From contig NC_081333.1 in NCBI RefSeq assembly GCF_022539665.2, forward strand, positions 1,488,001 to 1,552,000: a stretch of 64,000 nucleotides of DNA. Direction: 5' to 3'. This document shows, piece after piece, positions 11,428 through 49,650 of this stretch. The notes below the pieces were generated by a model. The model saw only the letters and a list, made by a program, of their open reading frames with translations, was not told the DNA's origin and ran no database searches. The position numbers and the translations under genes are program-made. Source of the stretch: Daphnia carinata. Lineage: Eukaryota; Arthropoda; Branchiopoda; Diplostraca; Daphniidae. The number at the start of each line of letters is the position of its first letter. Position 1 is the first letter of the stretch.

Positions 11428-12064
11428 TCTGCAAAAAAAAAAACTATTGTTTGGTCCAAATGTAATTTTAAAAATTATGTCCAGTTTCAAACGAAAACAA
11501 ACAAGACTTACAATTTGCTTGATTGATGCCTGGTTGTATTGCCACTTTATTGAAATTTCTGTGGAATATCCATTTTTGAAGCTACTGTGAAAAACTTTTT
11601 CGTATTTCTCCGTATTCCACAATGGATATTGCACGAGATGGTTTTCTATTTGAGATTGTAAACAAAATATTATTTGTTCAAAGTTTGTAATGGAGATTTT
11701 GGTTTTGAATACATTGCTATACTGCGATAAAATGCAGCGGAAAACTTGACTATTGTGGTTTCCAAGTTTCTGATTAACGTGTTGTTTCAAATATTACATA
11801 AAATTCTAGCATAGTAAGAAACAAATATGGTCCACGGCATTGATTACTCAGATCTTCATAATAATTATATCATTAATAAATAATAATTGCGCTGCTTTGT
11901 AGCTAAAAACTGCTGTTTAGTACTACTCTACTAGTTGTTGGTTTTCCGAAATTCGTGCAACGCTGAGTCTTGCGACGAGTCGCGAAAAAGAAAACAGAAT
12001 TTTGTTAGCTCACACGGCTAATGTTGTTCTAAATTTCCCGGCGAATTGCGTAGAAAGAATAAAA
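11428..12064. other. Divergent promoter region, torsin-activator copy 1 / CTR9
   Basis: About 640 bases between two head-to-head starts (11427 minus, 12065 plus), including the presumed 5' UTR and intron of the torsin activator. The open frame extending to 11790 has AT-rich, non-family sequence and is treated as chance. Confidence 0.6.
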
Positions 12065-15000: not shown

Positions 15001-16562
15001 CGCATGTGGAAATTCTTCAGTACCTTGCTCGAGCGCACTTCCGTGCCGGTAAGCTCCGTGAAGCCAAGCTATCTCTCCTTAAGGCCCAGCATGTCGCTCC
15101 GCACGATACCGTTCTCTTGTTTAACACGGCGTTGGTCCTGCAACGATTGGCGACCCAAATTCTCAAGGATGAGAAATCAGACTTGCAAACTGTGTTGCAA
15201 GCTGTCAGTGAACTACAGCTGTCGCACAAGTTCTTCCAATGGCTCTCGGTTAATGGAGATCGCATGCGTTACGATTTGTCATTTGCTGCTGCCGAGGCTA
15301 GACATTGTGGAGATCTTCTTTCTCAAGTAAGTAATTCCTTGCAAAATGTCTTAGGATAACCATTAACCGGAATTATCCCCTTTAGGCACAATACCATGTA
15401 GCGCGTGCTCGTAGCCTCGCGGAGGAAGAAAAACGTATGAAAAAGAAGCAAGAAGAAGAGAGAGAAGCCTTCCGTATGAAACAGCGAGAAGAACAAAACA
15501 GACTAGAAGAAAGTCGTAGACTGGAGCAAGAAAAACTACTCAAATTGCGTGAAGAATTTATTGAGAAAACCAAGAAAGCGACTCAGTTTAACGATATGCC
15601 AACAGAAAAAGCTGATAAGGGCAAGAAGGTATGTGATTAGGTTTTAGCACAACCGAAACGTACTTGAGATTACTTAACATTGTCGTGTTTTAGAGTCGCA
15701 AGAAGAAGGATGATGAAGACGGTTTCGTTACTGACGGTAGTGATCGTCTACGTAGCGGTGATGAGGGCGCTGGCCCGCCATCAAAGAAACGTAAGGCGGA
15801 ACGGAAGCCACGCCAAACAGAAAGCAAATCACGGAAGAAGACGAAAGGCGGAGAAGAACGTGGGCGGGCAAGGGAGAAAAAAGGTCGCAGTGAAGGCAAA
15901 GGTGCTAAGAAAGGAGCTTCGAAGAAATCAGCCGGAGATATTGAGGATGGCCTTAGTTCCAAACAGAAAAGCAAAGTGGTATCGAAAGCCATCATATCTT
16001 CTTCAGACGATTCGTCTTCAGAGGAAGGTGGCAAATTGCGCATTGCGAGCGGGTGAGTTAGATTAAAATTTTGGTGGAGCACATCCATTAATTCCAGTTT
16101 ACATGGATATTTTATTCATTTATTTCGCGTGTCTCTATTTCCAGTGGAGAGGAAAGTGGTGGTGAAGGGGGCGGAAAAAGCCGGAGGAGAAGAATCGCTT
16201 CCGGTTCAGAGAAGAGCTACAGCGGACGCTCTGTGTCTCGTTCTCCAGCAAAATCGCGATCGCCGTCAGGTTCTCGCTCTGGTTCGGGATCTCGTTCTCG
16301 ATCATCTGGACGTTCTAATTCGAGATCCAAATCTCGATCAAAATCACGTTCACGTTCCAACTCACGTTCTAAGTCGCGTTCCAAGTCCCGATCCAAATCC
16401 CGATCCAAATCCCGCTCGGTTAGCAGATCCTCCCGTTCTTCGCGGTCATCTCAATCGTCTCGTTCCAGGTCTAAATCGAAATCCGGCTCACGTTCATCAT
16501 CACGCTCTAAATCCGGATCTCGTTCTAAAACACCTAAATCAGGCTCGGATGATTCGGATTGA
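12065..16562 (+). CDS. CTR9: RNA polymerase-associated protein CTR9 (PAF1 complex), with one apparent 1-bp frameshift
   Basis: TPR scaffold of the nuclear PAF1 complex, which links elongating RNA polymerase II to H2B ubiquitination and H3K4/K36 methylation. The ATG at 12065 opens [13 protein letters not shown], the conserved CTR9 N-terminus. Family blocks follow: [52 protein letters not shown], repeated TPR helices to about 15360, then the Lys/Glu/Arg-rich coiled coil ([17 protein letters not shown]). The tail is basic and acidic with [10 protein letters not shown], and the last exon (about 16144-16562) is an RS-rich domain of repeated SRSKSRS ending SGSDDSD. At 13599-13602 a run of four Gs should be three: removing one restores LGSLYAAS...[11 protein letters not shown], while as written the frame stops at TAG. 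All other junctions are in frame. Confidence 0.94.
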
Positions 16563-17163
16563 AAACAAATGTTTATGTTATAAAGAAATCTTGCAACATT
16601 TGACAAATTAAACCCTTCATTCTTTTCGCAATTTAACTTGCTGTCTTTTCATTTTTCTTTATTACGTCGATATTGATAATATTGTCAACCGTCGTCATTG
16701 TCATATTACGTTTTGTGTTTCCAATTCTTGGAGAATAGGCGAAGTTTCGAAGTACCTGTTAGTTATTCTACACTGTATCGATGTCCACATCAGGTGCATC
16801 CCAGCCCATTTCGCACATTCATACTAAACTGGAAAGATACTGAATCGTTGGTAAACCAAACAAAAGTGCATCAAAATTCTTGAATTTATCTTCGTGAAGT
16901 TCGACGATAAAAGTAGACATGTTCCAAAACCATGAGTTATACCCTAGCAGTGCTGCTTGAAACTAGCAGAACAAACCCAAGTTAGCACTTACAGTTCAAA
17001 CGAACAAAACCTTTTGACCTGCAGTTTGTTTCGTTACACCACGTTTGACTTGCTAAAAAAAAATTTTACTGTCAAGCTATTGAGCAAGAATTACCAGTCC
17101 AAAAATGCCTGCTTTTCACAAAATTAAGTTTAATCTTTTTATTTTTTATTTTAGTTTACAACG
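16563..17163. other. Intergenic, CTR9 to torsin-activator copy 2
   Basis: About 600 AT-rich bases that should include the CTR9 3' UTR and the 3' UTR of copy 2. Nothing else is recognised. Confidence 0.6.
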
Positions 17164-18006
17164 TTAGCTGTTTAGGACAGCGTGGCAATGGTAGACGTCT
17201 GATGTCAGTGTGGAGCTGTCCAGTCGTGCAAGTGTATGATCAGTTTCTGGTTCGATGAAAACCACGTTGTTGGCCACTCGTGACACAATAGAAGCGGATA
17301 TGTCTACGCCTAGTGTAGGATCCCAGAGACTGTGAAGTTTCTGTTCCAACTGTTTTGAATTGTGCGGGATGTCAAAACCAAACGTTGCTGTCAAGATGAT
17401 TACACTTTTCTTGAAAGGAGCTATAAAGTTGTCGCAATAGCCGTGCAAAAGTAAGGCTGCACGTGGTGGGAGTTTCTCCAAGGGTCCAAGAATAACTGAA
17501 GAGAAGTCACTAAGGATAGAACTGATTTCCTTATCAAGTTCTTGATTGATAGTGTCGTCCTGTTGCAGAAGATCGGTAATTCCATCGACGTTAACTGTCA
17601 CCCTTGAGAAGTCGGCATTTGTGGAACTTTTCTTATGCAATAGCTTATTGACATTGATAGCCAAAGTAAGAGCAACACATTGCATGCTTTGCTTTGAAGC
17701 TGCTGTGTTTCTTCCAGCAAAAAGTAGAACTGCTGGTTGGGATGGCTCATCCTCCATAACACTATTGAGTGCTGCGAGGAAACTTATCCATGTTTCTTTT
17801 TTCTGCAATGGAAAAGAGCTTTGCATTTCATCAAGTAGTTTATTAACTTGACATGAAATATCTGCTTGGATTGATGTCCTGTCTTCTTCAGCGTTGAAGA
17901 GAACTGACCAAAAACCCACAATTTGACCACCCAACAAAAATGGTAAGCAAACACTAATAAAAAGTATGTTGATAGCTAGCAAAAAGTCACATACATAGTA
18001 ATTCAT
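17164..18006 (-). CDS. Torsin-activating protein, copy 2, N-terminally truncated
   Basis: A 280-residue paralogue of copy 1. It retains a membrane span right at its N-terminus (INILFISVCLPFLLGG) and the whole luminal domain: SQPAVLLFAG, LLLHGYCDNF, KKSVIILTAT, LHSLWDP, SRVANNVVFIEPE. Its C-terminus (DHTLARLDSSTLTSDVYH) differs from copies 1 and 3. The approximately 110-residue cytosolic/nucleoplasmic part is missing because the homologous DNA upstream (18010-18175) is broken by stops and small indels. The open frame of the luminal domain is uninterrupted, which suggests it is still functional or was truncated recently. The start at 18006 is the first in-frame ATG. It may be expressed as a short ER-type form or be a pseudogene in progress. 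Confidence 0.7.
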   Translation of the reverse strand: MNYYVCDFLLAINILFISVCLPFLLGGQIVGFWSVLFNAEEDRTSIQADISCQVNKLLDEMQSSFPLQKKETWISFLAALNSVMEDEPSQPAVLLFAGRNTAASKQSMQCVALTLAINVNKLLHKKSSTNADFSRVTVNVDGITDLLQQDDTINQELDKEISSILSDFSSVILGPLEKLPPRAALLLHGYCDNFIAPFKKSVIILTATFGFDIPHNSKQLEQKLHSLWDPTLGVDISASIVSRVANNVVFIEPETDHTLARLDSSTLTSDVYHCHAVLNS

Positions 18007-18009
18007 AAC

Positions 18010-18175
18010 TGAATTATTTCTGTAGATTTGAATGAAGATTATTTGACATTATGGGTAAATGATTTATGACTGAAGTTCTTTTTCCCATCCAGGTGTAGGT
18101 GTCTCAACTAGTAAAGTCTGGATTGTCTGTGGATCACCTATAATGTGAGTTGAACCATGCTGCTTTTATTTTAAA
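18010..18175 (-). pseudogene. Decayed N-terminal coding remnant of torsin-activator copy 2
   Basis: This stretch aligns with the coding DNA of copy 1 at about 11128-11285: on the + strand GGATCACCTATAATGTGAGT here corresponds to GGATCATTTATAATATGAGT there, and neighbouring bases match the TPPPDEM segment. Read in the homologous frame it encodes TPTPGWEKELQS and then a TAA stop, and small indels separate it from the frame of the ORF below. It is therefore a relic of the lost N-terminal region. A spliced role cannot be excluded. Confidence 0.65.
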
Positions 18176-19085: not shown

Positions 19086-20078
19086 TTAATCACGTCCGAT
19101 ATCATTAGATGATGTGGAATCAGTTTCTGGTTCGATAAAAACCACGTTATTGGCCACCCGTGACACAAGAGAAGCGGACTTGTCTATGCCTAATGAGGGA
19201 TCCCATAGGCTGTGAAGTTTCCGTTCTACCTCTTTTGAATTGCGTGGCATCTCGTAATCAAATGCTGCAGTCAAGATGATTACACTTCTTTTGAAAGGAG
19301 CCATGAAGTTATCGCAGTAGCCGTGCAAAATCATAGCAGCTTTTGGTGGAATCTTTTCTAAAGATCCAAGAACAACCGAAGAATATTTGCTAAGAATAGA
19401 ATGAATTTTCCTATCTAGCTCTCGCGTGATTGCGTTATCCTCTTGCGTGAGATCGGTAATTTCATCCCATTGGACTGTTATATCTTTGAAGTTGGCATTG
19501 GCGGAGTTCGTCGTATGCAACAGCTCGTTGGTGTTGATAGCCAAAGTTGTAACAACATGCTCCATAGTACGCATTGCAACCGGGGTGTTTCCGCCAATAA
19601 AAAGAAGGACTGCTGGTTGGGATGGTTCATCGTTTGTAACACTCTGGAGCGCAGCGAGAAAACTTATCCACGTTTCGACTTTTTGAAATGGGAACGTTTT
19701 TTGCATTTTATCAATTACTTTGATTGGGTCATTGGAAGTATTCGATGGAGTTGATTTCCCGTAGATAAAAAAAGAAAGAAGTAGAAAAAATAATGCTACT
19801 ATTGCAAAATATACTAGTCGCTTGGGCCAGTTCTTGGGTAATAGGAATAACAGTTTTTTCCATGTCGGCTGGAAGCGTGAATCATCCGACTTTAAGTTTT
19901 CATTCTCACCAGGTTTATTTTCTGGACTATCGACGTTTAATTCTTGCAGACGATCGTTTTCCGTTGAACGATTTGTTGTTGCTGACTGTTGTGAACTATT
20001 ATTGGAACTATCATTTTCATCAGAAGATTCAATTGAACTTTCTGTTGCTTCTGAATTTTGCGTAGAATTGGCGTCCAT
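19086..20078 (-). CDS. Torsin-activating protein (LAP1/LULL1-like), copy 3
   Basis: A 330-residue single-exon paralogue. The start is the ATG at 20078 (MDANSTQNSEATE); an in-frame ATG 30 bases upstream is possible. The N-terminus (about 1-80) is very rich in Ser, Asn, Asp and Glu and unlike the basic Ser/Pro-rich N-terminus of copy 1. A membrane span follows (VYFAIVALFFLLLSFFIYG). The luminal domain keeps SQPAVLLFIGGNT, MILHGYCDNF, KRSVIILTAA, LHSLWDP and SRVANNVVFIEPE. Copies 1 and 3 share the C-terminal DIG motif after FIEPE. The divergent N-termini with conserved luminal domains suggest different nuclear or cytosolic partners but the same torsin-directed function (inference). Confidence 0.8.
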   Translation of the reverse strand: MDANSTQNSEATESSIESSDENDSSNNSSQQSATTNRSTENDRLQELNVDSPENKPGENENLKSDDSRFQPTWKKLLFLLPKNWPKRLVYFAIVALFFLLLSFFIYGKSTPSNTSNDPIKVIDKMQKTFPFQKVETWISFLAALQSVTNDEPSQPAVLLFIGGNTPVAMRTMEHVVTTLAINTNELLHTTNSANANFKDITVQWDEITDLTQEDNAITRELDRKIHSILSKYSSVVLGSLEKIPPKAAMILHGYCDNFMAPFKRSVIILTAAFDYEMPRNSKEVERKLHSLWDPSLGIDKSASLVSRVANNVVFIEPETDSTSSNDIGRD

Positions 20079-20707
20079 TAAAAAAAGTATTCTATGGTCT
20101 GAATGCAATTACAAAATATGTGTTAGAATTTCAAATTCTTACAACTGATTCTACAATCATTATTTGAACAGCAGGTTTATCTTTTCCACTAACGAATGCG
20201 TCTCTCGATTTGGGCCGTGTTGCTGCACCCAGAAATTGTCAGAGATATTCCTTACAATTAGTTTTAGGTTAATCTTGTTGTAAACTATTACGAGATAGTT
20301 TGTAGCAAATGAGCACTCCTCGGTCAAATTATAAATTTAGATGGTAGAGATTTAATGCTATTAACTGCTATTTCTTTAACGCTAACTGAATGTAACTAGA
20401 TGCAACCGATTTAATATGTTAACTGCACTACGTTAACTTCGGGACCATGTACTGTAGCTCCACTTGTATTTTGTTATCTGCCCAAGTTTTTATCTAGTAC
20501 TTTTTGAACAATCAGTGGGAAAATTTATGCTGTCCGTTCGACTGTGATATTACAGCATAGTTTATCTGAGATCCCCAATTGTTCGCCTTCCAATTGCGGA
20601 AAACCTTTTCTCTTCTTAACACCAAAGAGGCAATTACATCGCAAGTTAATTAATACATTTATTGGATGACAACGGAACGTGAAAATAGAAACGGAAAACT
20701 AAACAAT
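20079..20707. other. Intergenic, torsin-activator copy 3 to VPS52
   Basis: About 630 bases, mostly upstream of copy 3 and downstream of VPS52. Several TTAACT/GTTAAC-like words occur near 20360-20440, but no gene or clear repeat can be supported. Confidence 0.55.
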
Positions 20708-31534: not shown

Positions 31535-32311
31535 GGGATAAAGATGCTTGTGAAATGTACTATTATTCCTTACTTTGTCACTGACATGGTGATTTTTTCT
31601 TACCAATGGTGAGAACAACACATCTTCACCGAACTGTAGTTTTAAAGGGAAAAGTTGTTGTACTTTTCTGCGTAAAAATGGCTTGTTGTCCATTATCTAC
31701 AGCAGGTTTCATAATTATGCAGAAAGCGTAAATCGTAAAAAAGACCGTAAGCAAGTATGTTCTTAAGTATCTTTTTTGTTTGTCTTTTATCCGTTGGTTG
31801 TGGCATCCTTAACGTAGAATTACTTATGTACAGTTTTTTTGCAATGTACCGTGCTTCACTATGCACAATAGTAGATTAAACGTGTGCTGTTTAAATCTCA
31901 ATATACTGAAACGAAATTTCAAATATGAAATTTATTTTATATTTTATATCTCCTTCCTCTGTCTAGTCTCTAGCAGAGTCATAGAGAATATTCTCTATTG
32001 ATTCTGGTCTCTAGTTTCTTTTTTTCTCTCCATATTTTTGCATCTGCGTAAATGAAAGTATGGCAACGCCGCATTTGTACTGTCAAGTTGAAATTTGAAT
32101 GGTAGTCTAGTAACGGATGGTTAATTTTCATGTCGTTCCACTAAATGTAAGTTTTTAAAATAAACTTCTGTATTTCAATCAACAGTAGTATTAATTCAGG
32201 TAAAACTTTGTTTTCTGTAAGTATTGTCTTTTTAGGGTTTTTTATTACGTGATGCAAACTATCCATTAAATGCATGTTTCGTTCTTGTGTTTGGATTTCA
32301 GTTGCAAAAGG
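31535..32311. other. Intergenic, orphan gene to kinesin
   Basis: About 780 AT-rich bases. The last part holds the 5' UTR of the kinesin gene, with a probable UTR intron ending at the CAG just before 32302. No other gene was seen. Confidence 0.55.
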
Positions 32312-35300
32312 ATGGCTGACAAAATCCAAGTGGCCGTAAGGGTACGGCCAGTATTGTTTCAAAAGAAAGATGTTGAAGTTCATTGGGCTTGTGAACAAGG
32401 TATGGTCTTTCAAATTGAACCTGGCACCAAAAAAAGGATTGGAAATCCTTATTTGTTTGATCAAGTCTTTGGTACGGAAACCCAAAACTATAAAATTTTT
32501 ACTGCATTGGTTCAACCCCTGATTGATTCTGCCATGAATGGTTTTAATGTAACTGTCTTGGCATATGGCCAAACTGCATCTGGGAAAACATACACCATGA
32601 TGGGAAGTCAGAAAGAGCTTGGGATTGTTCAATTGGCAGTTAACAGAATTTTCACACTTATTGAACAAAACCCTGAGCGTGCCTTCTTATTACGATGCTC
32701 ATATATTGAAATTTATAATGAATCAATTTCTGACCTCCTTTCGTCAAGCCATCAAAAACTGAAAGTGCAAGAATTGGCAGAAGGTCATGTCGTTGTACAC
32801 AATTTGATTGAGACTAATGTGAATACCCCTGATGCTGTATTAAAGTTAATGCAACAAGGTAACAAGCAGCGAAAAGTTGGGGGCACCAGCATGAATGAAA
32901 GAAGTTCTCGGTCTCATACCATCTTCAGGATAATTGTGGAAAGTTTGCCTCGTGATGAAGCTGATCGGTCTGATGCTGCTGTTATAGTGTCTCATATCAA
33001 TTTGGGTAACATCGCTATTGTATTATGAATTTCTCGTCCTAAAATTTTTTCGAAAACCCTAGTTGATCTTGCTGGATCGGAAAAAGCTTCCCAGACGAAT
33101 GCAACTGGCGATCGTTTCCGCGAAGGATGTGCAATCAACACCAGTTTGTCTGCTTTAAGTCTGGTCATCAAGCAGCTGAGTGAAGGCGAAGGTTTTGTTA
33201 ATTTTCGTGACAGCAAGCTCACTCACATTTTGCGAGCTTCGCTAGGTGGAAATGCACGCACTGCTATCATCTGCAACGTTACTCCAACCGTTTTGGACGA
33301 GACTTCTTCAACCCTCAAGTTTGCCTGTAGCGCCAAAGCTGTACAGAATCAACCACACGTCAACGAAGTTCTTTCAGATCAGGTGTGTTTTGACAAATTA
33401 ATTAAGTACTCCGCTGAAGTACCACTACCGTTTTTCCCAACAGGCTCTGCTGCGCAAATACAATAATTACATCAAAGACTTGGAGAAGAAATTAAAAGAA
33501 AAAGAACTAGAAAAGAAGCCTGAAGCTATTGAAGAAATGCAACGACTTCTACAAGAAAAAGACATGAAAATCAATGAGTTGAAGGAGCAGCTAGTGGTAT
33601 CAAGTTGTGGTGATGTAGCATCTGGAAGACCAGATAATAGTCTTAGTGTAAGTTTTAAAATGTTTTCAATGTAAATGCCATATCAAATCACCTTTTCTTT
33701 TACAACAACGGTTAGTGTGCCCAACGAAACTTGCGTCGAATGACATGGGGTGGTAACCGCTTGAGACAAGAATTAAACCTTCTAGGTCCGGCCGTTCTGG
33801 AAGTGAATACACCCCCAGTTCCATCTTCGGAGAGAGTTCCACGCACAGGTAATTTAAACTTAGTTGAAAAATACAACTTTCATTTTCACATAGTTTTTCG
33901 TTGAAACAGTGCCAATCTTTGAATATGTATTGAAAATCTTGCTTGATTTATTGTTACAGTGGCACAGGTATTTGCTAGTCGCCAGCGATCAAGTAATCTT
34001 ACCGGTTCTGATATGGCTATTGACGAGGCATCAGGAGATGCAGAAAGCTTCGAATCAGAAACGTTTTTGCCAGCGGAAATGGTTTTTAGTTCAGTTTCTG
34101 ATCCAGTAGCTAAAGTGAGCGTGGGAACGATGACTGATGCAGGAGAATCTCCTTTCAAGTTACCTAGCGTGCCTTCTACGCCCGTTCCAGTATTGCGTGA
34201 ACGAGTGCAGCGTTTGCGCATGACATTATTGAATAAAGAAAAAGAAAATGAAGATCTAAGGGAAGAATTAGAAGATCTTACAAACTTTACCCGCTTAGAG
34301 CAGGAAATCGGAGTTCATCCACAAGTTACGGCAAAAAACGTTGCGACTCCGGTATGAAAATTCATATTTAAGCATATGCGTTATCTATAAGAAATATTCT
34401 TATATTCAGGAATCCGCCGATCAGCTACATCGAGCATTACAGACGGCCAACGATATGGAAGTCTTATACTTGGATACACATCGAAAACTCAGCGAGCTTC
34501 AAACAGAATTTAGAACTAAAGAAGCGGAACATGAAGCACAAATTCGTTCGCAGCAAGCTGACTTCCAAGAGCGATTAGAATCAGAAACGAACGAAAGGAA
34601 ACGCGTCTCCAAAGAATTGGTTAGAAATCGGCATAATACCATTTCAGAGTTATTCCAATTTAAAGTAAAATTTGTAATTTTTTTTAAAGAGCGATCTTAA
34701 GGATAAATTCTATCGATTGGAAAGAGATCACTCAGAATCAGACACTCACTTGCAAGTTATTAGTGAGAGATATGCTAAGCGAGAAGTTGATCTTCGAAAT
34801 ACACTTCAGGTATGGGGAATCCCGAGTAAATTTGGTTGGAATTTAATTTAAGTTGATTGTAATCTTTGTGTTGCGTGCAGGAAGCTTGGAACCAACTGGA
34901 GCAGCTTGGCCAAAATCCCACAGCGATACAACAGAATTTTGACGCTAAGCAGAGACTCGTTGTTGTGGAACAAGAACTTCTCGAAATGTAAGTCAGTCTT
35001 CTGATGTGAAAGGAACTCTATGCTTGACTGAAATTCGATTTAATTTTGCATTATTACAAACAGGCACAAGCGTAACGATGAAGCACAATCTCAAATTCGC
35101 TCACTTACAGATGAGCTACGTCATCTCAAGGACTCTGCTCTTCAAATGCCTAACGATGTTGCCAAAAATGATGATGAAATGCATGATAGTTCTCTTAGCG
35201 GAATGTGCCTGGCAGATGAATTACGTGACGTTTTTGCTAATGATGATTGCTCTTTCGTTTCGCGTGCACGTCAAACCCGCAAACGGCCGAGTTCAATTTT

Positions 35301-38300
35301 ATCTGTTGCATTGGAAAAGATGGATCAATCAACGTGTATTTTGGAATCGTCCCAATTGGAAATTGAGCCAAGCAAAAAAACTCGGTTAGCGGTTACATCT
35401 GATCAGTCTGACGAATTAGATGTGTTAGAAATCAAAGAGATACGTGAATACCTTATCGAATTGCAGGTAACACATCATCGCTTATTTCTTTCCGTACCTG
35501 TTGCAAATCTTGGTTTTGTTTATTGCAGAGCGTTTTATTACGTTACGAAACTGATTATGATGCTCAAAGTCAAGAAAAAGAAGCTCTACGTAACCAACTA
35601 CAAAGCGCACAAAACGAACTTGCAGCTCTTCGTCAAGAGCAAAACAAAATGGAGTTCTCCGCTCGACAAGAAGAAAGTTCTACAAACAAATTCAATAATT
35701 CAAGAGAAGGATTTGATTCAAGTTGCTTCATGGGTGACCCGTCGATTTCCATTTCAGTCGTGAATATGGAACAATCTTGTGGGTCGGATGAAGAATTCGT
35801 TAGTTTAAGAGAACAGCTTGGAGAAACGTGTGGATCTTTGACGGCTCATGAAGTGTCGGAATCGGCTGCGCAAGTCATACAAAAAGTGGATGATAGTAAT
35901 AAACGCCAACAAGAACTTGAAGAAGAAGTATCCCAAATGGCTGCCAAAATCCACGAACTTAAGGAGGAACTCGCTTCAAAAACCATAGCGGTGGAACAAT
36001 CGCTTCGATCTCTCGAAACCGCACAGTCTACCATCCAAGTCCTTGAACAGCGAAGCATAGGACGACAACAGTTGATATCAAGTCTAGATGAATTTGATGG
36101 AAAAATTCTCTTGCTACATGAAGAGTCAACTGTCGTATCAAACAACGTCGATTCAGCACGTAAGATTTTCACGAATATTCGAAATGAAATGAATAAGCTA
36201 TCCGAGCAAAAAGATGTTCTCGAGCTTCAGGTGAGAAAGGCAAATGAAAATCTCGAAGCCGCTCATACTGAATTGAGTGAAACGTTAGAACGCCTTGCCG
36301 CTTCAAGTGAGCTCGAACAGAAACCTAACATTGAACATGAAAAGACTTATGAAGAACTGAGCCGTGCTCTGGAGCAAATCGAAAAACTGAAACTAGAGTT
36401 CGACTTGAAGACGGCTGAGGTCCATGCTGCTCAAAACGACCTCAAGCAAACACGTTCTAGAATGGAGGAAGTAGAACAAAGCTCTTTTGAAAAAATTCAG
36501 CTGGAAGAGCTTGTTGAAAAATTAACGAGTCAACTGGATAGCCTACAAGATGCTTTAGATTCCAAGACTCAAGAACTCGCAGATGTTCAGGAAGCTGAAA
36601 AAGAGGCATTGCTTCAAAAAGAAAACTTCAAAGCTGAATTGGAAAAGAAGCTGCTTGAAATCAGTCAAGCACATGATGAAATAACTGCAGTTCACCTGGA
36701 GTTAGACTCCACCACAGCTGATCTCAAAAGTGTGCGACAAGAACTGGAAGAAGTCCGTACAAACTCTCAAGAATTTTTGCGTTTAAAGGAGCAGTTAGAA
36801 ACAGAGAAAAAAGAGGTTCTTGTTATGGTAGAAGAACTGAAAGAACAAATTCGCATTAAATCTATTGCGATGGAGGAGGCTAAAAAACAATTGGAAGAAC
36901 TACAGGGCAATGATTCCGAAGTTGACTGCCTACGTAATGCACTTGAAAAAAATCGGGGTCAAGTAGAAGAGCTTCAAGTGACCAATAAAGAACTCGTAGA
37001 TGAAATAAGCGTGGCGAAGATAAAAATCGAAGAGCTTAGCGATGAATTGCAGTCAAAGATTAACATTCTTTCGGCAACTGACAAAGAAGCTTCGTCAAAA
37101 CAACAAGAATTATCAGTTGAATTGGACATCAAGTTGCAAATAATCGATGAACTTGAACTCAGTCTTAAGGAAGCACATGCTCGTTTGATTGAGGTCCAGT
37201 CCATGAAGGAAATCGTCCAAAATGATTTGGCTAAAGCGAAAAGACGAATTGAAGATCTCGAAGAAAACCTCGAGTCAGAATGCGACGCTCATTTAGCTTT
37301 GCAGCGAGTTGCAGAGCAGGCGGCTTCTATTGCGGCTGCAGCATCGAAAAATAGTTTGGAGGAAAAGGAGAAAACAGAACACCAGCTTCTTGAGCTCCAT
37401 GGAAGAGTCAATGAATTAACGCGAACTCTTGAGGAAAAAACGACTGCCTTGGAAGCTGCGAAAGCTGAAGTTATGAAGTTTGAACATTCCAGTCGCGTAA
37501 CGATGGTGGCGCGCGAAGATTTCGATGCTTTGCAATCGGATTGGAAAGAGGCAATTGAACAAGTGTCTCGGTTGGAAGCATCATTAGAAGAAAAAGTTTT
37601 ACAAGTTGAAAATTTGTCTAGAAATATGGAATCATTTCAATCTCGGGCACTTGCTCTGCAACTTGAAAAACAAGGTCACTCTACGCAAGTAGCTTCCCTT
37701 GAACGCAATATAGAGGATCTTGTAGCTCAAAATGCAAATCTCAGTAAAGAAATTGAGCAATACCAGTCGGATATACAGTCCAAAGAGGAAAAACTGGTTA
37801 GTCTTGGTCCTATGACTGAAAAAATCTTAATGCTACAAGCTCGTCTTGAAGAGACCGCCAGCAAATCAAGACAGATGTCCTGTGCTTTAGAGAAGAAAGA
37901 AGAGGAAGTGCGTTGCTTACACGAGGAATTATCTCACGCCACAGATAGTCAACTTAGAGGCAAAGAAGATTTAAAACACACCGAGCAAAGATTGCACGAA
38001 TCCCACAAAGAACTGGAAAGCATTCGATCCGCACTTGAATCTATGCAAAGTGCCAATGATGATCTCCTGACGCAGCTCAGTTGTAAAGAGAACCTAAATG
38101 AAAATCTACGCAAAGACATGGAAAACCTTACGCAAAGATTCGATATGTTGCATTCCAAACTGCAACAGGTTCAGTCTGAGAAGTCGAGTCTGTCAGACCG
38201 GATTCAGTCGTTGGAAACGGAATTAGAATGCCGAGATCAAGAAATTGGAGACATTCGAAGTGGTCTCGATGACATCCAAAAAGAACGTGAAATATCTTCG

Positions 38301-39660
38301 CAATTAAAGCAACGCCTTAATGCTTTGCAAGTGCAATATAACGATGCTGTCAATCAGTGTCAAAAATTGGCATCGGTGAGGGATGAAATTTTGGAACATC
38401 AAGAGCGTTCACGAGGGGATATTTTACGCCTTAACTCAAAGTTACAGTTGATTACTGAAGAGAAAGCGGCATTAGAACAAAATAAATTGCTTTCCGAGTC
38501 ACAGAAGAACGCCATCCTTTGCGATTATGAAAATTTGAAGACTACGCTATGTGAAACGGAAAGCCAATTACGTGTGGCCCAGGGTCAGCGTGATGATTTT
38601 AGTCATCAAATAAAAATATTGAACGATCAAATCGGTCAAGTACGAGCCAAACTTACTGCCTTCGAATCGAACTCAAATCAAGTAGCCCAAAGACAGATGG
38701 AAGAAACGATTGATGGTCTTAAAAGAGAAATCGCTGACACCAAATCAAAAAGCGAAGTTCTACGATTGAATTTTGAGACAGAAGAGAATGCTCGCAAGAA
38801 GAAAACTGAGAGGCTGGAAAAAGAACTTGATTCTGTAAAGCAGCAGGTGCAGTACCGCTATGCTTTATGGTATACCAAAAATGCATTTATCTTGTCTTTC
38901 CTTGTAGTACTTAAAATGCAAAGAGCAGCTCCGCCTACTCCGTCATGGGCCAAATGAAGAGGCAACAGTTAGCTTACCCAAGCATCGTGTTTCTATCTCC
39001 GTTGAATCCATATCTATCCAAACTGATCCGATTGCTGATAAAGGATTTGGCGTAAGTTTTCAAAAAATTTTACTTTAACTAGTCAGTTTTCTTGTAAGCA
39101 ATCATGTTTTAACACACAGTTCCGATGGCAAATGGAGCAATACGTTTCAGACAACGAGCGGCTAAGGAAGAAAGTCTCTGATCTTGGCGAAAGAATGGAG
39201 TTTTACAAAGAAAAGCTAATTAAATATCGAACAATGTATTTCCAAATGACTGGCCAAGACCCACAGAGGCCACCAAGCAGTTCGTCGAACAACTCTTCAC
39301 AGCCACTCGAACGTCAATCGTCTATTTCTGCTGGTTCGCGAGAAAATACTGCAGGTATGAACGCCATTTTCGTGCACAAAAAAAGAAGCAAACTGAATTT
39401 CATAACGACTTCTTTCAGATCGCCCACTGGTGGAGGCCGAGCGAAATCTTAGAACAAAAACTTCGGCTCCCATTACAACAGGAAACCCACTACCCGCGTC
39501 ATTAGCTCTTCAAGAGCAACACCAAGAAGAAATGAAAGCTCGAATGCCGAAAGCTGTTGCAGTGGCCCCAACTTCGTCGACTCGATGGGCTACCGGTGCA
39601 AAAAAGGAATCTCTTACTAAAGAGGAGATGGAAAAAATCAACAATTGCAATCCTAGCTAA
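32312..39660 (+). CDS. CENPE: CENP-E-like kinesin-7 with long coiled coil
   Basis: Plus-end-directed mitotic motor that links kinetochores to microtubules in the CENP-E family. The N-terminal motor (about residues 1-330) has the P-loop GQTASGKT at residues 86-93, switch I NERSSRSH at about 195-202, switch II DLAGSEKA and the final NTSLSALSLVIKQLSEG and FRDSKLTHILR segments. The neck and roughly 1,700 residues of heptad-type coiled coil follow. Most of the coil is one exon of about 3.4 kb (about 35528-38848). The C-terminus is Ser/Pro-rich and ends ...KKESLTKEEMEKINNCNPS. The junctions I traced are in frame. The total of roughly 2,100-2,200 residues is close to insect CENP-E proteins. The kinesin-7 motor match is strong; CENP-E orthology rather than another kinesin-7 is inferred from motor similarity and architecture. 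Confidence 0.88.
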
Positions 39661-42251: not shown

Positions 42252-42960
42252 CTACTGAGCAACAGCACTCCTTTTTTCTTCTTTTTTCTTCTGTAAAGTT
42301 TGTTTCACTTGGTAATCCTTCAATGCTGCTTTGATTGCATCCTCAGCAAGCATAGAACAATGCAGTTTGACTGGTGGAAGCGATAATTCTTTCGCAATTT
42401 CAGTATTTTTATTTTCAAGGCATCATGAACCTATTATACCAATATAAAATGTTAAAAAAGATTACACTTTCCAAAAAATAATAGTAGCTTACTGATTTTC
42501 CTTTCACCCATTCAGTGGCTAATGAGCTTGATGCAATCGCTGAACCACAACCAAAAGTTTTGAACTTTGCATCAATAATTTTCCCGTTTTCATCAACTTT
42601 AATTTGAAGTTTCATCACATCACCACAGGCTGGAGCTCCAACAAGACCTGTGCCTACATTGACATCCTTCTTGTCCATAGAACCAACATTCCTTGGCTTT
42701 TCATAATGATCTATTACCTGAAGAAAGCGATCAAATATAAAAATAAGACAAATTTTTTTTAGTGGTTGCAGGCCTGCGGACGACACATATACGTATGCAA
42801 GTTATAAATTGCGTCAAGTGATTCATTTGACGAAAAACTCAACAAATATCCATCTTTGCAGTTTGCTTACTTTCTGATGATACGAAGCACACAATACCGA
42901 CGGCTGATTCGCTGAACGAGACCGGATAACCGCACGAGAAATGTTTTGATACATCGCCAT
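42252..42960 (-). CDS. ISCU: Iron-sulfur cluster assembly scaffold ISCU, with one apparent 1-bp frameshift
   Basis: Mitochondrial scaffold on which Fe-S clusters are built with NFS1, frataxin and HSPA9. The ATG at 42958-42960 begins a basic mitochondrial presequence (MAMYQNISRAVIRSRSANQ). Exons are 42871-42960, 42493-42717 and 42252-42430. The core has VIDHYEKPRNVGSMD, VGAPACGDVMKLQI with the first ligand Cys, FKTFGCGSAIASSS with the second, the HSCB/HSPA9-binding LPPV motif, and VKLHCSMLAEDAIKAAL with the third Cys. In exon 3 the frame breaks once: the run AAATAAAAATACT should have one more A to read IKNTEIAKEL. As written (T5 at 42406-42410 on the + strand) the frame runs into a stop. I interpret a homopolymer error or recent lesion. 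The rest is intact. Confidence 0.92.
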
Positions 42961-43477
42961 TTTTGCCTGATCTTTTATTTTTCGACTATGAGGTGCTAAA
43001 TTACATCACATGTTGGAAATAACAAAAAAGGAAAACAGCGTTGCCGCTATAATCTAAAACAAATAAATGAACGGCGGTAAAATTGACACGGAAAATGTGA
43101 AACAAGGTGAAATGAGAATATTATGTAACAATTTGTTAAATTATCATCTCGAGCAAATCTTAATAAAAAATTTATGATACGGTAAGAAAAAGCGAGGGGG
43201 AAGGGATCACCCCCCCCCTATCTTTAAGACTGCATAATTGCAAGGTTGCCTAAAAAACTAGATGAGAGGTAACGTTTTTCGAATTATTGCAAGGTCAAGT
43301 GATCGATTTAGTGGAGGAAAGGAAACCATGGGTAGGGTAAGAATATTGGTCAGTTGAACTACTGCTTCAACGTGTGTTAGTCGTTTTCCTTCACAATCCC
43401 TCTGTTTTATGATATTTTCCAACGTTAAAGGGAAGGAATCAAGTAATTTTTTGTGCGTGATTAGAAATCCTGGACAC
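42961..43477. other. Divergent promoter region, ISCU / H2B variant
   Basis: About 520 bases between head-to-head starts, with a C9 run near 43211-43219. The in-frame ATG at 43409 would add 23 residues to the H2B variant, but these are hydrophobic and unlike histone tails, so I do not use it. Confidence 0.55.
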
Positions 43478-45544
43478 ATGGCTCGTAGGAAGAGAAGTAT
43501 AGGTTCCGTGGAAAAAGAGCTTGTGCAACCAGCTCTGAATCATAGGCAAACCAGGGAATCGACACGACGTAAAAAATCTTTCCAGACGGCTCGTTTCTCT
43601 AACTATGTGTTCAAAGTACTGAAGCAAGTGCATCCACAGGCAAGTTTTTAGTTATCGCTGATATATTTAGTTCAATGATTCGCTTTCTTTCTATCCGTTC
43701 TATTAAAGAAAAAAAATTCGTACAGTGTTTTGATATTAAAATCATATTTTTTTTTGTTCATGTAGTTGTCGATGACGAATAAAGCAATGAAAGTAATGGT
43801 AAGTTCTGTAAACGTTTATGTTATTTTCAGTCCCTAAAAAAGAATAACCGTTTTTATTTTCGAGGATGATTTCATGCACGACATATACTCGCGACTGGTG
43901 GCTGAAGCGGCAGGATTGGTGAAATTAACAAGAAGATCAACCCTTTCGGCGTCCGAATTTCAAACAGCCACAAGGCTAATTCTGCGTGAGTGCATTTAAA
44001 TATAAATATCTTGGAATACAGCAGAATGTGCCGGTATTGTGCTGTGCGTACGATGCCTTTTCCGTGTCGCTTTTCCGTAACATGTAAATTGAATTTTTTA
44101 ATGATAATTACGGGTATCATTGATGTCGTGATATTGGTATGAAAAGCCAGGGCGAAACATATTTGTTCTAACGAAGTGGCGTGATCAATAATTTTGTTTT
44201 CCATTCACTTTTTCATTAATTTAATTAATTATTTTTTTCTTTTCGTCTTTCTTACGTTAGCTGGGGAATTAGCTAAACACGCCATCAGCGAAGCGTCAAA
44301 AGCTGTAGCCAATTTTCTAACGTCGAGGTAAGCTTGCAAACTTATGAATTTCTAAAAATTAGCTTTCTATTTTTGATTGTACAGGGATGACGATGCCAAG
44401 AGATCCCACGCTCGCCGAGTCATTAATAATCCACCGTCCACCACTTCAGCCGGTGCGAGCAATCAAGAGCCTGTAGAAATTGAAATTTTTGGGACCGGGC
44501 GGCGCCCACCTGTGAGTGTCGATACCGAATCGATTGAAGAAGATGAGTTTGTGAAGCAAATTAACCCCACCCGAAAATTTTACCCAGTGTATCCATCAAA
44601 GGATAATCAGATAGAGCAGATGAAAATAATTCAAAATGCAAGCAAGAACATTCCAGATAGCTCAACCGCTTTACATCCCATCGACGAGGAACGTGAAATG
44701 TCTGAAGAAAACATAACAGATGAAGAAAATGGCTCGACAGTGCTAGGTGAACCAGGTCCTCCGACACCTCCCACAGAAGTCGAATCGGACACATCAATTA
44801 CTACCACCGAGACACCTCCAGTGGATGTCGAGTCGGACGCATCGACCACCACATCCAAAACACCTCCCATCGCGTTAGAATCAGACGCGTCGACGACCAA
44901 ACCAGATATATTTGACAAAAGTGAGATCGGTGATGCTAATGAGCCGAAACACCCTGACGATGAGGCGAATAAGAAACGGGACAAAGAAGCGGATACCTTA
45001 GAAATGGACGCTCAGTCTGTCGATAGTGAAGAAGCCGAATTGTTGGTAGTTGTAAATGTCAAAGGAAAGGTTTGTCGAAATCCCACCCATGTATTACCTG
45101 GTAAGCTTAAACAGGCTGTTATCCCTCAGATATGAATAACCTTATTAATTGCATCTTGTCTTTAGGTTCGACTATCACAGCGCAAATGACATCCAGCTCG
45201 GACACCATGCATTCAATCGGTACTCATGTCACGTATAAATTTATATTGCCATTTTCAAACTAACAATACAGTAGATACAGAGAGTCAGCGTGTTTCGGTA
45301 TCCGTAGATACCGGGCGACCACCCCATGTGGAAAATGAGGCTGTGGTGTCTGGTACTAGTAGTTCTACAAATTCAGACGCAGCTGAAGCACAACCTCAAC
45401 TTACTGTTCGATGTTCTACGGTATGCAATTAATTGCCCTGTTTAGTAAAATTATTATAATATAGCTCTTCGGTAGGTTACTAGCACAAAAACTACGTTAA
45501 TTCACGAACGTAAAGAAAAAGTCAGTGAATGGTTTACTGGATAG
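43478..45544 (+). CDS. Histone H2B variant with a very long acidic C-terminal extension
   Basis: Predicted nuclear core histone of the H2B family. Eight exons join in frame to 456 residues: 43478-43639, 43766-43798, 43865-43985, 44261-44327, 44385-45100, 45166-45219, 45272-45420 and 45476-45544. Residues 1-37 form a basic tail (MARRKRSIGSVEKELVQ, RRKKS). Residues about 38-128 align without gaps to the H2B fold: YVFKVLKQVHPQ, NKAMKVMDDFMHDIYSRL, AEAAGLV, RRSTLSASEFQTATRLIL, PGELAKHAISEASKAVANF. The lysine that Bre1/RNF20 ubiquitinates (vertebrate K120, in VTKYTS) is Asn here (VANFLTS). Residues 129-456 are an acidic, Ser/Thr/Pro-rich extension with three imperfect repeats around VESDxS-TTT-PP (bases about 44764-44910). 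Ordinary replication-dependent H2B genes are intronless, about 125 residues and lack this tail. Intron 1 uses a GC donor. The tail's function is unknown. The histone call is certain from the fold alone. Confidence 0.9.
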
Positions 45545-48440
45545 AAGAATAAATGAAGACCCAGCCTACTAAGTTCTTTACATAATTTTGTTCATAATAG
45601 GGTAATGTAGACCCAAGTAACTGTTATGCTTTTTTTCCCCTCTCCAAACTGTTTTACAAATTTTTAAAATTATCTTCAAAAGTGTTGCAATCAGAAATCT
45701 TGAGATTTGGTAGAAAAAGTCACGAACGTTTTTCGTTTGTTTGATGGGCAAATATCTGATAATTGTGCAGAATTGACGGATTGAAGTTATTTTGTCCTAA
45801 TAGTTCGTCATAGGACTGTTGAATAGAAGGAATAAGTCACCTATCAATTTGAGCTCTATCGGAATGTTGTTCCAGTTTCCCAATAGGGATTATGTGTAAT
45901 GTAGACGATTAATAAGTACACTCGTCCGTGTTTGACAATGTTTTGGTCAATGCCGACGTTAGCGTTTCGGAGAAATTCGGGAAGTTCATGCGTTCATTCT
46001 TACATCTCAACGGTTAGTACGACGCGCTGTTTGACCCACTTTTTGACAGACAACTATAGTTCGGTAGTTCACTATTTTACAAACGCCAGCTAGCGGTCAA
46101 GAGTGTCAAAGCACAATCTAGCAGTCAACATCGATGGCGGATATGAATAGATCTCTCCCCAAAAGAAGCAGGAGTATTCTAAATACTGTATTTGTCAATC
46201 GATTGTTAGGCCAGTTTCGTTTGCCAGTCAATTGTCTATGGAGACGGTTATGGAAAGGAGATTAACGTGTTAATATCGTTAAGCTTTGAAGGCAGTGCTT
46301 GGATTGGATGGAGTGTTTGGTAAGCCAACAGAGATTCTAGATTACAGGTATGATAGTGTTTGATGTTTAAAAACCCTTCTATGCTCTACAGAAGGCATGA
46401 TCAAAGTGATTACTGACCATGTTTTTTGCCCTGAACATTACAACCATGCTTGGTATCAAGTTTGGATATCAGTTTTCTTACATCCATCATTGCATCCAGT
46501 TTAGGTATGTTGACCTTAGGACTATTATAAAAGTAGTCCAACTATAAAACTCAAGCGTAATCACATGGCAATCATGCAAGTTAAGCAAAACATTTTCTTG
46601 AAAATTTTATTTTGTTTAACAATGTACATATTGAGCAAACCAATCAAGTGAAAACCCATTCTATATTTACAAGTGAAGAGTTCGAAGGTATGAGCAAGTT
46701 CTTTATTTACAAGTACATAATCTAAAATGAGTCCATAGGTACGCAGCATCGATTTCCAGGGAAAATTGATGACTGTAAGATGCAGCGATCGTTATTATCT
46801 AAAATACCGCGGCTGCCACCTCTGGTTCTTGTTTTTCCTTTCTTCGCATGAAAACTAGAGTGATGCAAGTCGGTATCCGCGCGAAAACCAAGATGCAAGA
46901 CGCCAAAGATCGTAAACAAATAACCACGTACAATTGCCGCTCGCAATGAAATGACAACATTCGTACCCTGCATTGGTAATGGTAGCTGCACCTTGAAGAA
47001 AACGTGTGGAGCATGGCTAATACAAAATTTAAAAAAAAAATAAACTGTAATGAAACTTCATGTCGGCGACTTTGATCACTTTTTCCTCTCTTGTTTACAA
47101 TGTAATGTCACATTGTAGTAGCATTGCACCACAGTTATGGCCAACAGTTAAAGCCGACTAATTGGACAAAGTCCTCATTTAATCCATATTAAACCCAAGG
47201 AGACAGACGAAACAGTCTATGTAAAAAAAATAATCACTTTTTCGGGATCCTCCCACATCTTGCTGAGGTGAAGTTTGCGGGTCGATAGATTTAGCTGATT
47301 CTGGCATTATTTGATTAACAAAATGCGTGCCAGCCTTAAACTTTGCAGGAATAACGAACGTCTGGTTCGTTATGTTGGGTACCTTGTAATTTGTATTAGT
47401 TTTTCAGTATTTTCGGAGCATTTTTGGAAATTTGCATATTAAAAGACTGCATAAAACACCCGAACTTAGTAGTATAGTAAACTATTCACCGCGAGTATGT
47501 AAATATCCTGGAATGCTTATAGTTCGTTATAGTATAACGTTTTAACAATCCTGTGTCGTGACGGATCGAAACTCACAGGATTGAACGCTGACGTCGTCTG
47601 TCATGTCCGCCATTTTAGCTGTGTCTACATGAGAACATTTCTACTCTGTTATCGTCAAAGTTTTCCCATTTTTTTGTGCATTTACATTAGCAAGTAAGTA
47701 ACACGACACAATTATTATTCTTCAGGCATTATTTTTTTGCTTCATTATTAGACCTAGGACAATGGAAGCCTGTTATGTTAACAAGTAATGATAAGTAGAA
47801 CTCAGGTAGTGAACAATCAATGCTGAAATTGTACCTAAGTAAATGCAATCTTGGGTTTTTCAGGAGTTAACTATCTCTCAGTTCTTCATCAGAGCATAGT
47901 AAAAGCATTATTTTTAATTTAATGCTTGAATATTATTTTGCAAAGAATCTCTCACAAAGAATCGTGAGTTGACCTAAAAGGATTGACTGTATTGTTTCAA
48001 GCTTAGGCACACATGTTGAACCATTACTGCTTAAGTCACCTGTCATTATTCATCTATAACTAGAGAACCAAGTGATTTATTTGTCCTTTTCACTTGGTAC
48101 TTCACGTTGTGACTTTTGTGTGCACTAGATATTCCCTTAATTTGATTCCGTTGAATCTTCATTCAAGGGGTTCAGGTTTATGCAGAGCTTTTATTGAAAG
48201 AAAATTGAAGATGCTAGCTGTCTGCATAAAATTTTTTTAGAATGAAAATCTATTTTAACAAAAGTAGCATCACCTGTCTTCACACAGTTCAAACATTATG
48301 TCCCAGTAATCAAAGGAAATCACCTGAGCTAGTTTTCAAACATGTATCTTTGTTTGAATCATAATCGGTACTTTAGTCTCTTATCTGCCAATGTTGTGTT
48401 GCTTTTTTCTTGTCTGATTTTCTTATATCTGTTGCACAGG
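45545..48440. other. Gene-poor stretch, possible non-coding first exon near 47.6 kb
   Basis: About 2.9 kb of AT-rich DNA. Short ORFs around 46.56-47.01 kb have no family resemblance. A clean donor AA|GTAAGT at 47694, and an acceptor CACAG just before 48441 leading into the satellite, could define a spliced transcript ending at the AATAAA near 49747, but there is no coding support. Otherwise nothing is recognised. Confidence 0.45.
45548..45553 (+). terminator. Poly(A) signal immediately after the H2B-variant stop
   Basis: AATAAA begins only three bases after the TAG, which implies a very short 3' UTR, a polyadenylated mRNA and no histone stem-loop. I see no histone 3' stem-loop downstream. 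Confidence 0.55.
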
Positions 48441-48489
48441 TTCGTTTTCGTATAGTCGCTACCTTTTGCTGTGGTTTCATCGCCGTCTT

Positions 48490-49180
48490 CGCCTTCGCCT
48501 TAGTCTCATCGCTGTTCTCGCCTTCACCCTGGTCTCTTCGCCTTCGCTGTGGTCTCTTCGCCGTCTTCGCCCACGCCGTCTTCGCCTTCGCCGTGGTCTC
48601 TTCGCCGTCTTCGCCCTCGCCGTGGTCTCTTCGCCGTCTTCGCCCTCGCCGTGGTCTCATCGCCTTCGCCCTCGCAAGTCTTCGCCTTCGCCCTCGCAAT
48701 TCTTCGCCTTCGCCCTCGCAATTCTTCGCCTTCGCCTTCGCCCTCGCAATTCTTCGCCTTCGCCGTGGGCTCATCGCCTTCGTCGTGGTATCGTCGCCGT
48801 CTTTCCCTTCATCGTGGTATCGTCGCCGTCTTTACCTTCATCGTGGTATCTTCGCCTTCGTCTCGGGTCTCATCGTCGTCTTCGCCTTCGTCTCGGGTCT
48901 CATCGTCGTCTTCGCCTTCGTCTCGGGTCTCATCGTCGTCTTCGCCTTCGTCTCGGGTCTCATCGTCGTCTTCGCCTTCGTCTCGGGTCTCATCGTCGTC
49001 TTCGCCTTCGTCTCGGGTCTCATCGTCGTCTTCGCCTTCGTCTCGGGTCTCATCGCCGTCTTCGCCTTTGTCTCGGGCCTCATCGCCGTCTTCGCCTTCG
49101 TCTCGGGTCTCATCACCGTCTTCGCCTTCGTCTCGGGTCCCATCGCCGTTTTCGCTTTCATCTCATCGCCATCGTTCGCG
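48490..49180. repeat. CTTCGCC-rich minisatellite with a 30-bp tandem core
   Basis: From 48851 to 49150 ten 30-bp units run head to tail, starting TTCGCCTTCGTCTCGGGTCT. The first six (48851-49030) are identical and the last four differ by one or a few bases. From about 48490 to 48850 shorter, degenerate related units (TTCGCCGTCTTCGCC...CGTGGTCTC) precede it. Because the unit is a multiple of three and lacks stop triplets in several frames, three + strand frames stay open for 250-317 codons and also a minus frame; their translations are simple Arg/Ser/Val/Leu or Lys/Thr/Glu repeats. I regard these as a by-product of the repeat. Confidence 0.9.
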
Positions 49181-49308
49181 TGCGACCCACAAAGATGGAA
49201 CAATCGGATCCAGGAAAAAAATTGCGGCGATCGACCGAGACTGCGCCGCGGGACTTTTCGGGTATCATATTGTTTTGTATTGTTCTGTGTTATGTGTTGT
49301 ATTGTATA

Positions 49309-49650
49309 GTTAACCTGTTGGCTGCCACCCCGTTTGCTCCCATTTTTTTTGTAGGTTGTAGGGAACCGGGCGCTGTTCTTCCCCATGGCCATGGGGGGAA
49401 CAGTCGCCAACGCGCCTAAAGGCACAAGGCCTTTAGGCGCGCCTAGGCAATGCACCAGTAGGGACTTCTCTTTTTCGGTCCGGTGATAGAAAGCCTGGGG
49501 TGTGCATTCCCGGAATGGCCTCTATCACCGTGCCAGCCCGGACTTGTCTTCGGACAAGTCCCCCTTGGTCGGGATCCTTCAGACGCGACGAGTAGCTACT
49601 GTAGTTTCAGCAACCTACGGGTTGCGTGGCTTGGCAGCCAACAGGTTAAC
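49309..49650. mobile_element. 342-bp terminal-inverted-repeat element (MITE-like) with nested hairpins
   Basis: Perfect 19-bp terminal inverted repeats, GTTAACCTGTTGGCTGCCA at 49309-49327 and its exact reverse complement at 49632-49650, are flanked on both sides by TA, as in Tc1/mariner-type insertions. Inside are further perfect inverted pairs: GTAGGTTG 49351-49358 with 49611-49618; a CCCCATGGCCATGGGG palindrome 49381-49396 flanked by CTGTTC/GAACAG; CGCGCCTAAAGGC 49411-49423 with 49429-49441; CGGTGATAGA 49481-49490 with 49521-49530; GGACTTGTC 49540-49548 with 49553-49561 around TTCG. No transposase is encoded. A non-autonomous element is most likely. The internal structure is unusually elaborate. 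Confidence 0.75.

Follow-up and report, generated by a model that had tools for sequence, protein, structure and literature searches.

This locus raises the question of whether a single gene of Daphnia carinata can encode a histone H2B joined to a tail longer than the histone itself, and what kind of protein this would be. The window analysed is a 64,000-nucleotide stretch of DNA (G000:C3:1488001-1552000) within a 108-Mb genome of 106 contigs, and the gene runs from 43478 to 45544 of it. The initial annotation described eight phase-consistent exons, and the chain is borne out: the joined length is 1371 nt, or 456 amino acids plus a stop codon, with no internal stop. The features are listed in window coordinates, with deposited relatives given as P0002-P0004.

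43409..43477, plus strand: a further 23 codons ahead of exon 1, included in the deposited isoform X2 model and absent from P0002-P0004
43478..43639, plus strand: exon 1 (residues 1-54), encoding the basic N-terminal tail and the beginning of alpha1, followed by a GC splice donor; MARRK start common to P0002-P0004
43766..43798, plus strand: exon 2 (residues 55-65), covering loop 1 and the beginning of alpha2
43865..43985, plus strand: exon 3, alpha2, loop 2 and alpha3, residues 66-105, with codon 106 split
44261..44327, plus strand: exon 4, alphaC helix including the lost K120 position (Asn123); ends at residue 127
44385..45100, plus strand: exon 5, basic linker DDDAKRSHARRVIN, conserved EPVEIEIFG at residues 156-164, an acidic region rich in S/T, and the TPPTEVESD island at residues 255-263
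45166..45219, plus strand: exon 6, residues 367-384
45272..45420, plus strand: exon 7, with its acceptor either at 45272 or, as the deposited model implies, at 45275 (one Val fewer)
45476..45544, plus strand: exon 8, last part of the tail together with the stop codon

Six of the seven introns (2-7) are bounded by GT-AG, and intron 1 by GC-AG with the donor CAG/GCAAGT. Intron lengths range from 52 to 275 nt (n=7), and retention of any one of the seven, tried singly, introduces a stop codon every time. Exon 5 (716 nt) has no stop codon in the frame used and 23 and 12 in the other two, and an open sequence of its length was found in 0 of 5000 first-order Markov simulations of the same make-up. 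An AATAAA lies at 45548, just past the stop codon, and because it is so near, its use as a poly(A) signal is uncertain.

The product is already represented among deposited proteins. A database search matches it at 100% identity over 100% of the query to P0001, the D. carinata 'uncharacterized protein LOC130693620 isoform X2' of 478 amino acids, which differs from the chained 456-residue product by an ATG 23 codons upstream (43409) and by one Val missing at the exon 6/7 junction, as would result from splicing at 45275, 3 nt beyond the acceptor at 45272. The search for full-length relatives scored a capped set of proteins whose lengths lie between 0.55 and 1.75 times that of the query; those found include P0002 (D. 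sinensis GHT06_011719, 83% identity to the product), P0003 (454 amino acids, 84% identity) and P0004 (D. pulicaria LOC124343977, 51% identity over 97%), all three of which start with MARRK, as had been proposed for this gene. Computational gene prediction may be the source of P0001, P0002 and P0004. The contigs behind P0003 do not exceed 1855 nt, whereas the gene in the window spans 2067 nt between its start and stop codons, which points to a spliced cDNA as the source of P0003. Fold and tail are joined in at least five full-length proteins (P0001, P0002, P0003, P0004 and P0006), and exons 5-8 were not found to form a separate gene, in keeping with the single gene first described. Because the deposited model and the orthologs match the chained product, LOC130693620 is a real, conserved gene. 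No second tailed H2B locus was found elsewhere in the D. carinata genome, and among viral contigs 161 pattern stretches yielded no confirmed relative. Precomputed annotation of the database matches places PF26281 beside PF00125; PF26281 is absent from the Pfam scan results.

The gene does not have the build of a replication-dependent histone gene, which would be intronless, carry a 3' stem-loop (RF00032) and lie in multicopy clusters. No Rfam family, the histone 3' stem-loop included, has a match at the gathering threshold within the 64-kb window. RF00032 matches do occur in L015, L016 and L017, loci that hold canonical H2B genes, with the stem-loop not assigned to individual genes there; the canonical H2B genes of D. 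carinata lie on contig C6 and encode a protein of 123 amino acids. Given its seven introns, the one tailed locus found and the lack of an RF00032 match in the window, LOC130693620 would fit a replication-independent, polyadenylated gene.

The N-terminal part of the protein has the ungapped H2B fold that was claimed for it, aligning gap-free to residues 36-124 of human H2B. A loop-1 deletion in the fold was also considered and was rejected by a check of the register against human H2B. The designation as an H2B variant agrees with the Pfam scan, in which Histone is the sole family above cut-off in the three proteins scanned (P0001, P0004 and P0006). Of the solved chains closest in sequence, 60 of 178 are listed, and almost all of these carry an H2B label; a structural search with the predicted model ranks nucleosome and histone-octamer chains at the top, with 39-53% identity (the chain molecules being unlabelled), TM-scores by target of 0.43-0.62 and rmsd of 5.4-19. 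The AlphaFold model, made with a 17-row alignment, is of low confidence overall (mean pLDDT 49.3), although the histone helices average about 68-80 by block; the alphaC helix is predicted to extend into the basic linker, with confidence dropping (59-68). The fold matches the canonical H2B of the same genome at 42 of 89 residues, and the fold of P0001 is identical to those of P0002 and P0003 at 89/91 residues each, P0004 at 87/91 and P0006 at 67/91.

A fold-only profile search extends the comparison to short records with the same residue signature: P0075, P0078, P0079, P0080, P0081, P0083 (a near-copy of P0079), P0085 and P0088, found among the 120 of 6430 matches listed. Twelve class folds were compared (P0001, P0002, P0003, P0004, P0006, P0075, P0078, P0079, P0080, P0081, P0085 and P0088). 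In a tree with 21 hand-picked H2Bs, including manatee H2B type 2-K1, a spider H2B.L4-like protein and fungal and plant H2Bs, the 12 folds form one branch of length 1.74 with support of 99/100, apart from the others; the bootstrap of this tree is not fully settled, two comparison rows are long and P0120 was dropped for want of an anchor. A further record, P0076 (D. pulex, late histone H2B.L4-like), is a 155-residue relative of the class fold whose middle resembles translated intron 3, and it looks like a decayed or mis-modelled duplicate.

For single residues, in human numbering, the comparators were 98 of the 120 listed profile matches plus the human and D. carinata canonical H2Bs (n=100); the 22 matches dropped were seven class rows, P0083, P0076, eight without LPGELxKHA in register, one short and four without an anchor. 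K120, the RNF20/Bre1 ubiquitination site, is found in 0/12 class folds (N in seven, T in three, S in two) and in 97/100 of the others, where the three exceptions are doubled-H2B records whose first copy is cut there. R79 is lost in 12/12 class folds, none of which has K or R at 79, compared with 93/100 of the others; R92 is present in 0/12 against 98/100, and Y83 in 1/12 against 98/100. Positions 92 and 79 are presumably at the H4 side of H2B. The class also has L52, K/R/H60, D64 and M66 in all 12 folds and E or D at 71 in none; E76, E105 and K116 are each present in 12/12, and position 113 is E in nine and D in three. As judged from these alignments, the tailed protein is part of a wider fold class without K120 and other usual residues.

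The tail had been described as an acidic, Ser/Thr-rich extension of about 328 residues. Its length and composition stand (328 residues, 129-456, net charge -31, with 62 D/E and 76 S/T), although its acidity is only moderate, and the charge is concentrated, with -24 within residues 229-358. The net charge of the tail is -36 in P0002, -30 in P0003, -36 in P0004 and -41 in P0006, and P0001 is identical to these tails at 258/327, 265/324, 137/294 and 71/277 aligned positions, respectively. The Pfam scan of the tail gives no domain above cut-off in P0001, P0004 or P0006, and the AlphaFold model has a weak C-terminal helix in an otherwise unstructured tail, which is thus predicted to be disordered.

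Conservation within this tail centres on EPVEIEIFG, which is invariant in five rows (P0001, P0004, P0011, P0061 and P0068) and is the most conserved stretch of the first 232 tail residues; once P0006 is added, the window QEPVEIEIF scores 0.93. Each was matched by 0/2000 column shuffles, which ignore the aligner's own fitting and were applied to hand-picked rows. PVEIEIF occurs in 10 of 11 tail rows, being missing in P0081; the remaining proteins among the 188 retrieved lack it. Conservation of the TPPTEVESD island is weak: with five rows, a fraction of 0.0105 of 2000 shuffles score as high, and for PPTPPTEVE, its counterpart once P0006 is included, the fraction is 0.068; TPP at the same spacing is missing in P0006 and P0081. 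DAKRSHARR (0.103) and SEENITDEE (0.18-0.22) are not significant in column shuffles. Single-sequence matches to consensus patterns for SUMO interaction, the Fbw7 degron and WDR5 did not exceed chance and were discarded as evidence. The initial annotation suggested that the tail might recruit chaperones or kinases or serve as an electrostatic spacer; with conservation concentrated in one short motif, the alignment points to docking more than to simple spacing. P0081 has 81 residues beyond the fold, with a net charge of -3 and without PVEIEIF, a result that counts against a uniform tail across the class; in the short records P0075, P0078, P0079, P0080, P0085 and P0088 no tail was seen.

The reading preferred here, which is given an even chance of being right, is a replication-independent H2B variant that would form ubiquitin-refractory, probably labile nucleosomes and present a tethered tail for docking; its anatomy has been set out above, and the mechanism would run as follows. 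The variant would pair with H2A via its conserved H2B fold and enter nucleosomes. With Y83, R79 and R92 lost at or near the H4-facing side, H2A-H2B would be released more easily, and with K120 lost, the usual H2B ubiquitin mark would be impossible at that place. The tail would act as a disordered, acidic, S/T/P-rich arm of about 300 residues in which EPVEIEIFG docks a partner, and the variable remainder would be a charged, probably phosphorylated spacer. In the available text of PMC10450195, H2B Tyr83 forms a stacking network together with Tyr72 and Tyr88 of H4, the loss of which accompanies unstable nucleosomes in Trypanosoma brucei and Melbournevirus. H2B E76 bonds to H4 R92, according to the available part of PMC8235166, and because E76 is kept throughout the class, octamers of the variant may be stable, which would count against labile nucleosomes. 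A bolder form of the preferred reading, considered improbable as a whole, envisages a deep, undescribed H2B class beyond Daphnia that is ubiquitination-proof and loosened from H4, with one or two tethered tails per nucleosome. Each tail would bear PVEIEIF as a conserved hook, perhaps a strand that binds SUMO or a WD40 protein, and TPPTE as a conserved site and possible phosphorylation-controlled degron; such a histone would govern by its own tail how long it stays on chromatin and which partners it recruits.

The tail may instead be a built-in chaperone that bends back onto the surface with which its own H2A-H2B dimer contacts DNA; the variant would thereby stay soluble and could readily be deposited or evicted. 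DEF/Y is a motif consensus of H2A-H2B chaperones, and the title of PDB entry 6kbb names a DEF/Y motif. Tails of -30 to -41 in P0001, P0002, P0003, P0004 and P0006 are in favour of such a role, as is a DEF/Y-like stretch, EEDEF or EEDEY, in P0001, P0002, P0003 and P0061. However, Leu replaces the aromatic residue in P0004, P0036, P0056 and P0011, the stretch is missing in P0068, P0006 and P0081, and the best-conserved part of the tail is hydrophobic-alternating rather than acidic-aromatic, such that a chaperone role is thought unlikely.

Also rather unlikely, and slightly more doubtful, is a histone-fold protein that functions outside the nucleosome, where H2A or a different histone-fold subunit would be its partner within a regulatory complex, with the tail as an activation or scaffold region. 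The low match to the canonical H2B of the same genome, the altered positions 79, 83 and 92 and the likeness of the tail to regulatory disordered regions would all suit such a protein, but the class retains E76, E105 and K116 without exception, an alphaC helix is predicted, and the solved-chain matches listed are nearly all H2B. A third alternative, compatible with the preferred reading and assigned a small probability, is a variant of germline or sperm chromatin, similar to mammalian germline or hydrozoan sperm H2Bs, with a tail that evolves fast under reproductive selection. As far as the accessible portions of PMC8857922 and PMC5011920 go, divergent H2Bs are often germline proteins, and the identity of the tail to that of D. 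pulicaria is low; however, the hydrozoan and sea urchin sperm H2Bs in the accessible portion of PMC5011920 bear SPKK or SPKR in N-terminal tails, not acidic C-terminal tails, and the Daphnia folds are highly conserved (87-89/91). Mis-annotation, with exons 5-8 drawn from another gene or the locus a pseudogene, is scarcely credible and was rejected: nothing was found in its favour beyond the possibility that three of the five full-length relatives are computed models too, and against it stand the joined fold-tail relatives, the open exon 5, the in-phase chain and, for P0003, a contig shorter than the gene.

The preferred variant can be set beside known histones. Like canonical replication-dependent H2B it has an ungapped histone fold with E76, E105 and K116; unlike it, the class is without K120, R79 and R92 (and, in 11/12, Y83), and the D. 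carinata gene has seven introns, one tailed locus and a 328-residue tail. MacroH2A consists of a histone fold and a large C-terminal region with a folded macro domain. The tailed H2B shares the order of fold and large C-terminal region, but its tail has no Pfam domain above cut-off and is nearly structureless in the low-confidence model. Mammalian H2B.W (H2BFWT, H2BFM) is similar in its divergent fold, with about 50% identity to canonical H2B, and in its extended C-terminal tail, according to the available text of PMC8857922 and PMC11742582, but most H2A- and H4-interacting residues are kept in H2B.W in the latter, whereas 79, 83 and 92 are changed here; the tree had no H2B.W row. Vertebrate H2B.K and H2B.N are also intron-bearing H2B variant genes, with one intron at a shared place in the available text of PMC8857922, compared with seven in the tailed gene. 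The sole H2B.K row, manatee 'H2B type 2-K1' (P0145), is not part of the class branch (99/100). A D. pulex 'H2b variant' is 77.2% identical to H2b in the available part of PMC4514973, and was rejected as too close to be the tailed protein.

As far as the accessible literature text goes, no published account of this protein, of an H2B tail of such length, of the PVEIEIF motif or of the residue signature was found; the protein, already deposited as 'uncharacterized', looks like a member of an undescribed class of chromatin protein. H2B variants are the least characterised class of histone variants, with few known in animals, in the available text of PMC11742582 and PMC8857922. A K120-less class in a tractable ecological and genetic model would be a natural test of what H2B ubiquitination is for, and the variant allows one to ask how a nucleosome behaves with a permanent disordered tail that exceeds the histone in size.

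Other histone loci were observed in the same genome. L031 (G000:C1:6306500-6311500) holds, at about 1910-2440, a second intron-bearing H2B gene with a canonical fold, K120 kept and no RF00032 match; by eye, its introns follow ...SGDK and ...VLKQ, at a place unlike that of the introns in the tailed gene. Two H3 frames seen by eye in L032 (G000:C5) and L035 (C6), the latter apparently partial, are presumed to be CENP-A-like, and an intron-bearing H2A on the minus strand of L034 (G000:C2), ending by eye in a C-terminal SQEY, is presumed to be H2A.X-like.

In the window itself, a NifU_N (ISCU-like) gene lies on the minus strand at 42252-43005 (frame 42415-42801), head to head with the histone gene and separated from it, by eye, by a few hundred bases; a shared promoter is possible. 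Three similar minus-strand frames are found at 10333-11793, 17164-18048 and 19086-20108, of which the first and second have a match to the C-terminal AAA+ activator domain of LAP1 and the third is alike by eye. A TPR frame followed by an RS-repeat frame at 14874-16611 is presumably CTR9-like, and a Kinesin motor followed by a 1169-residue frame resembling a coiled coil at 32270-39452 is presumably CENP-E-like. At 48373-49309 there is a GC-richer, minisatellite-like repeat in which three forward frames are open over 269-333 amino acids.
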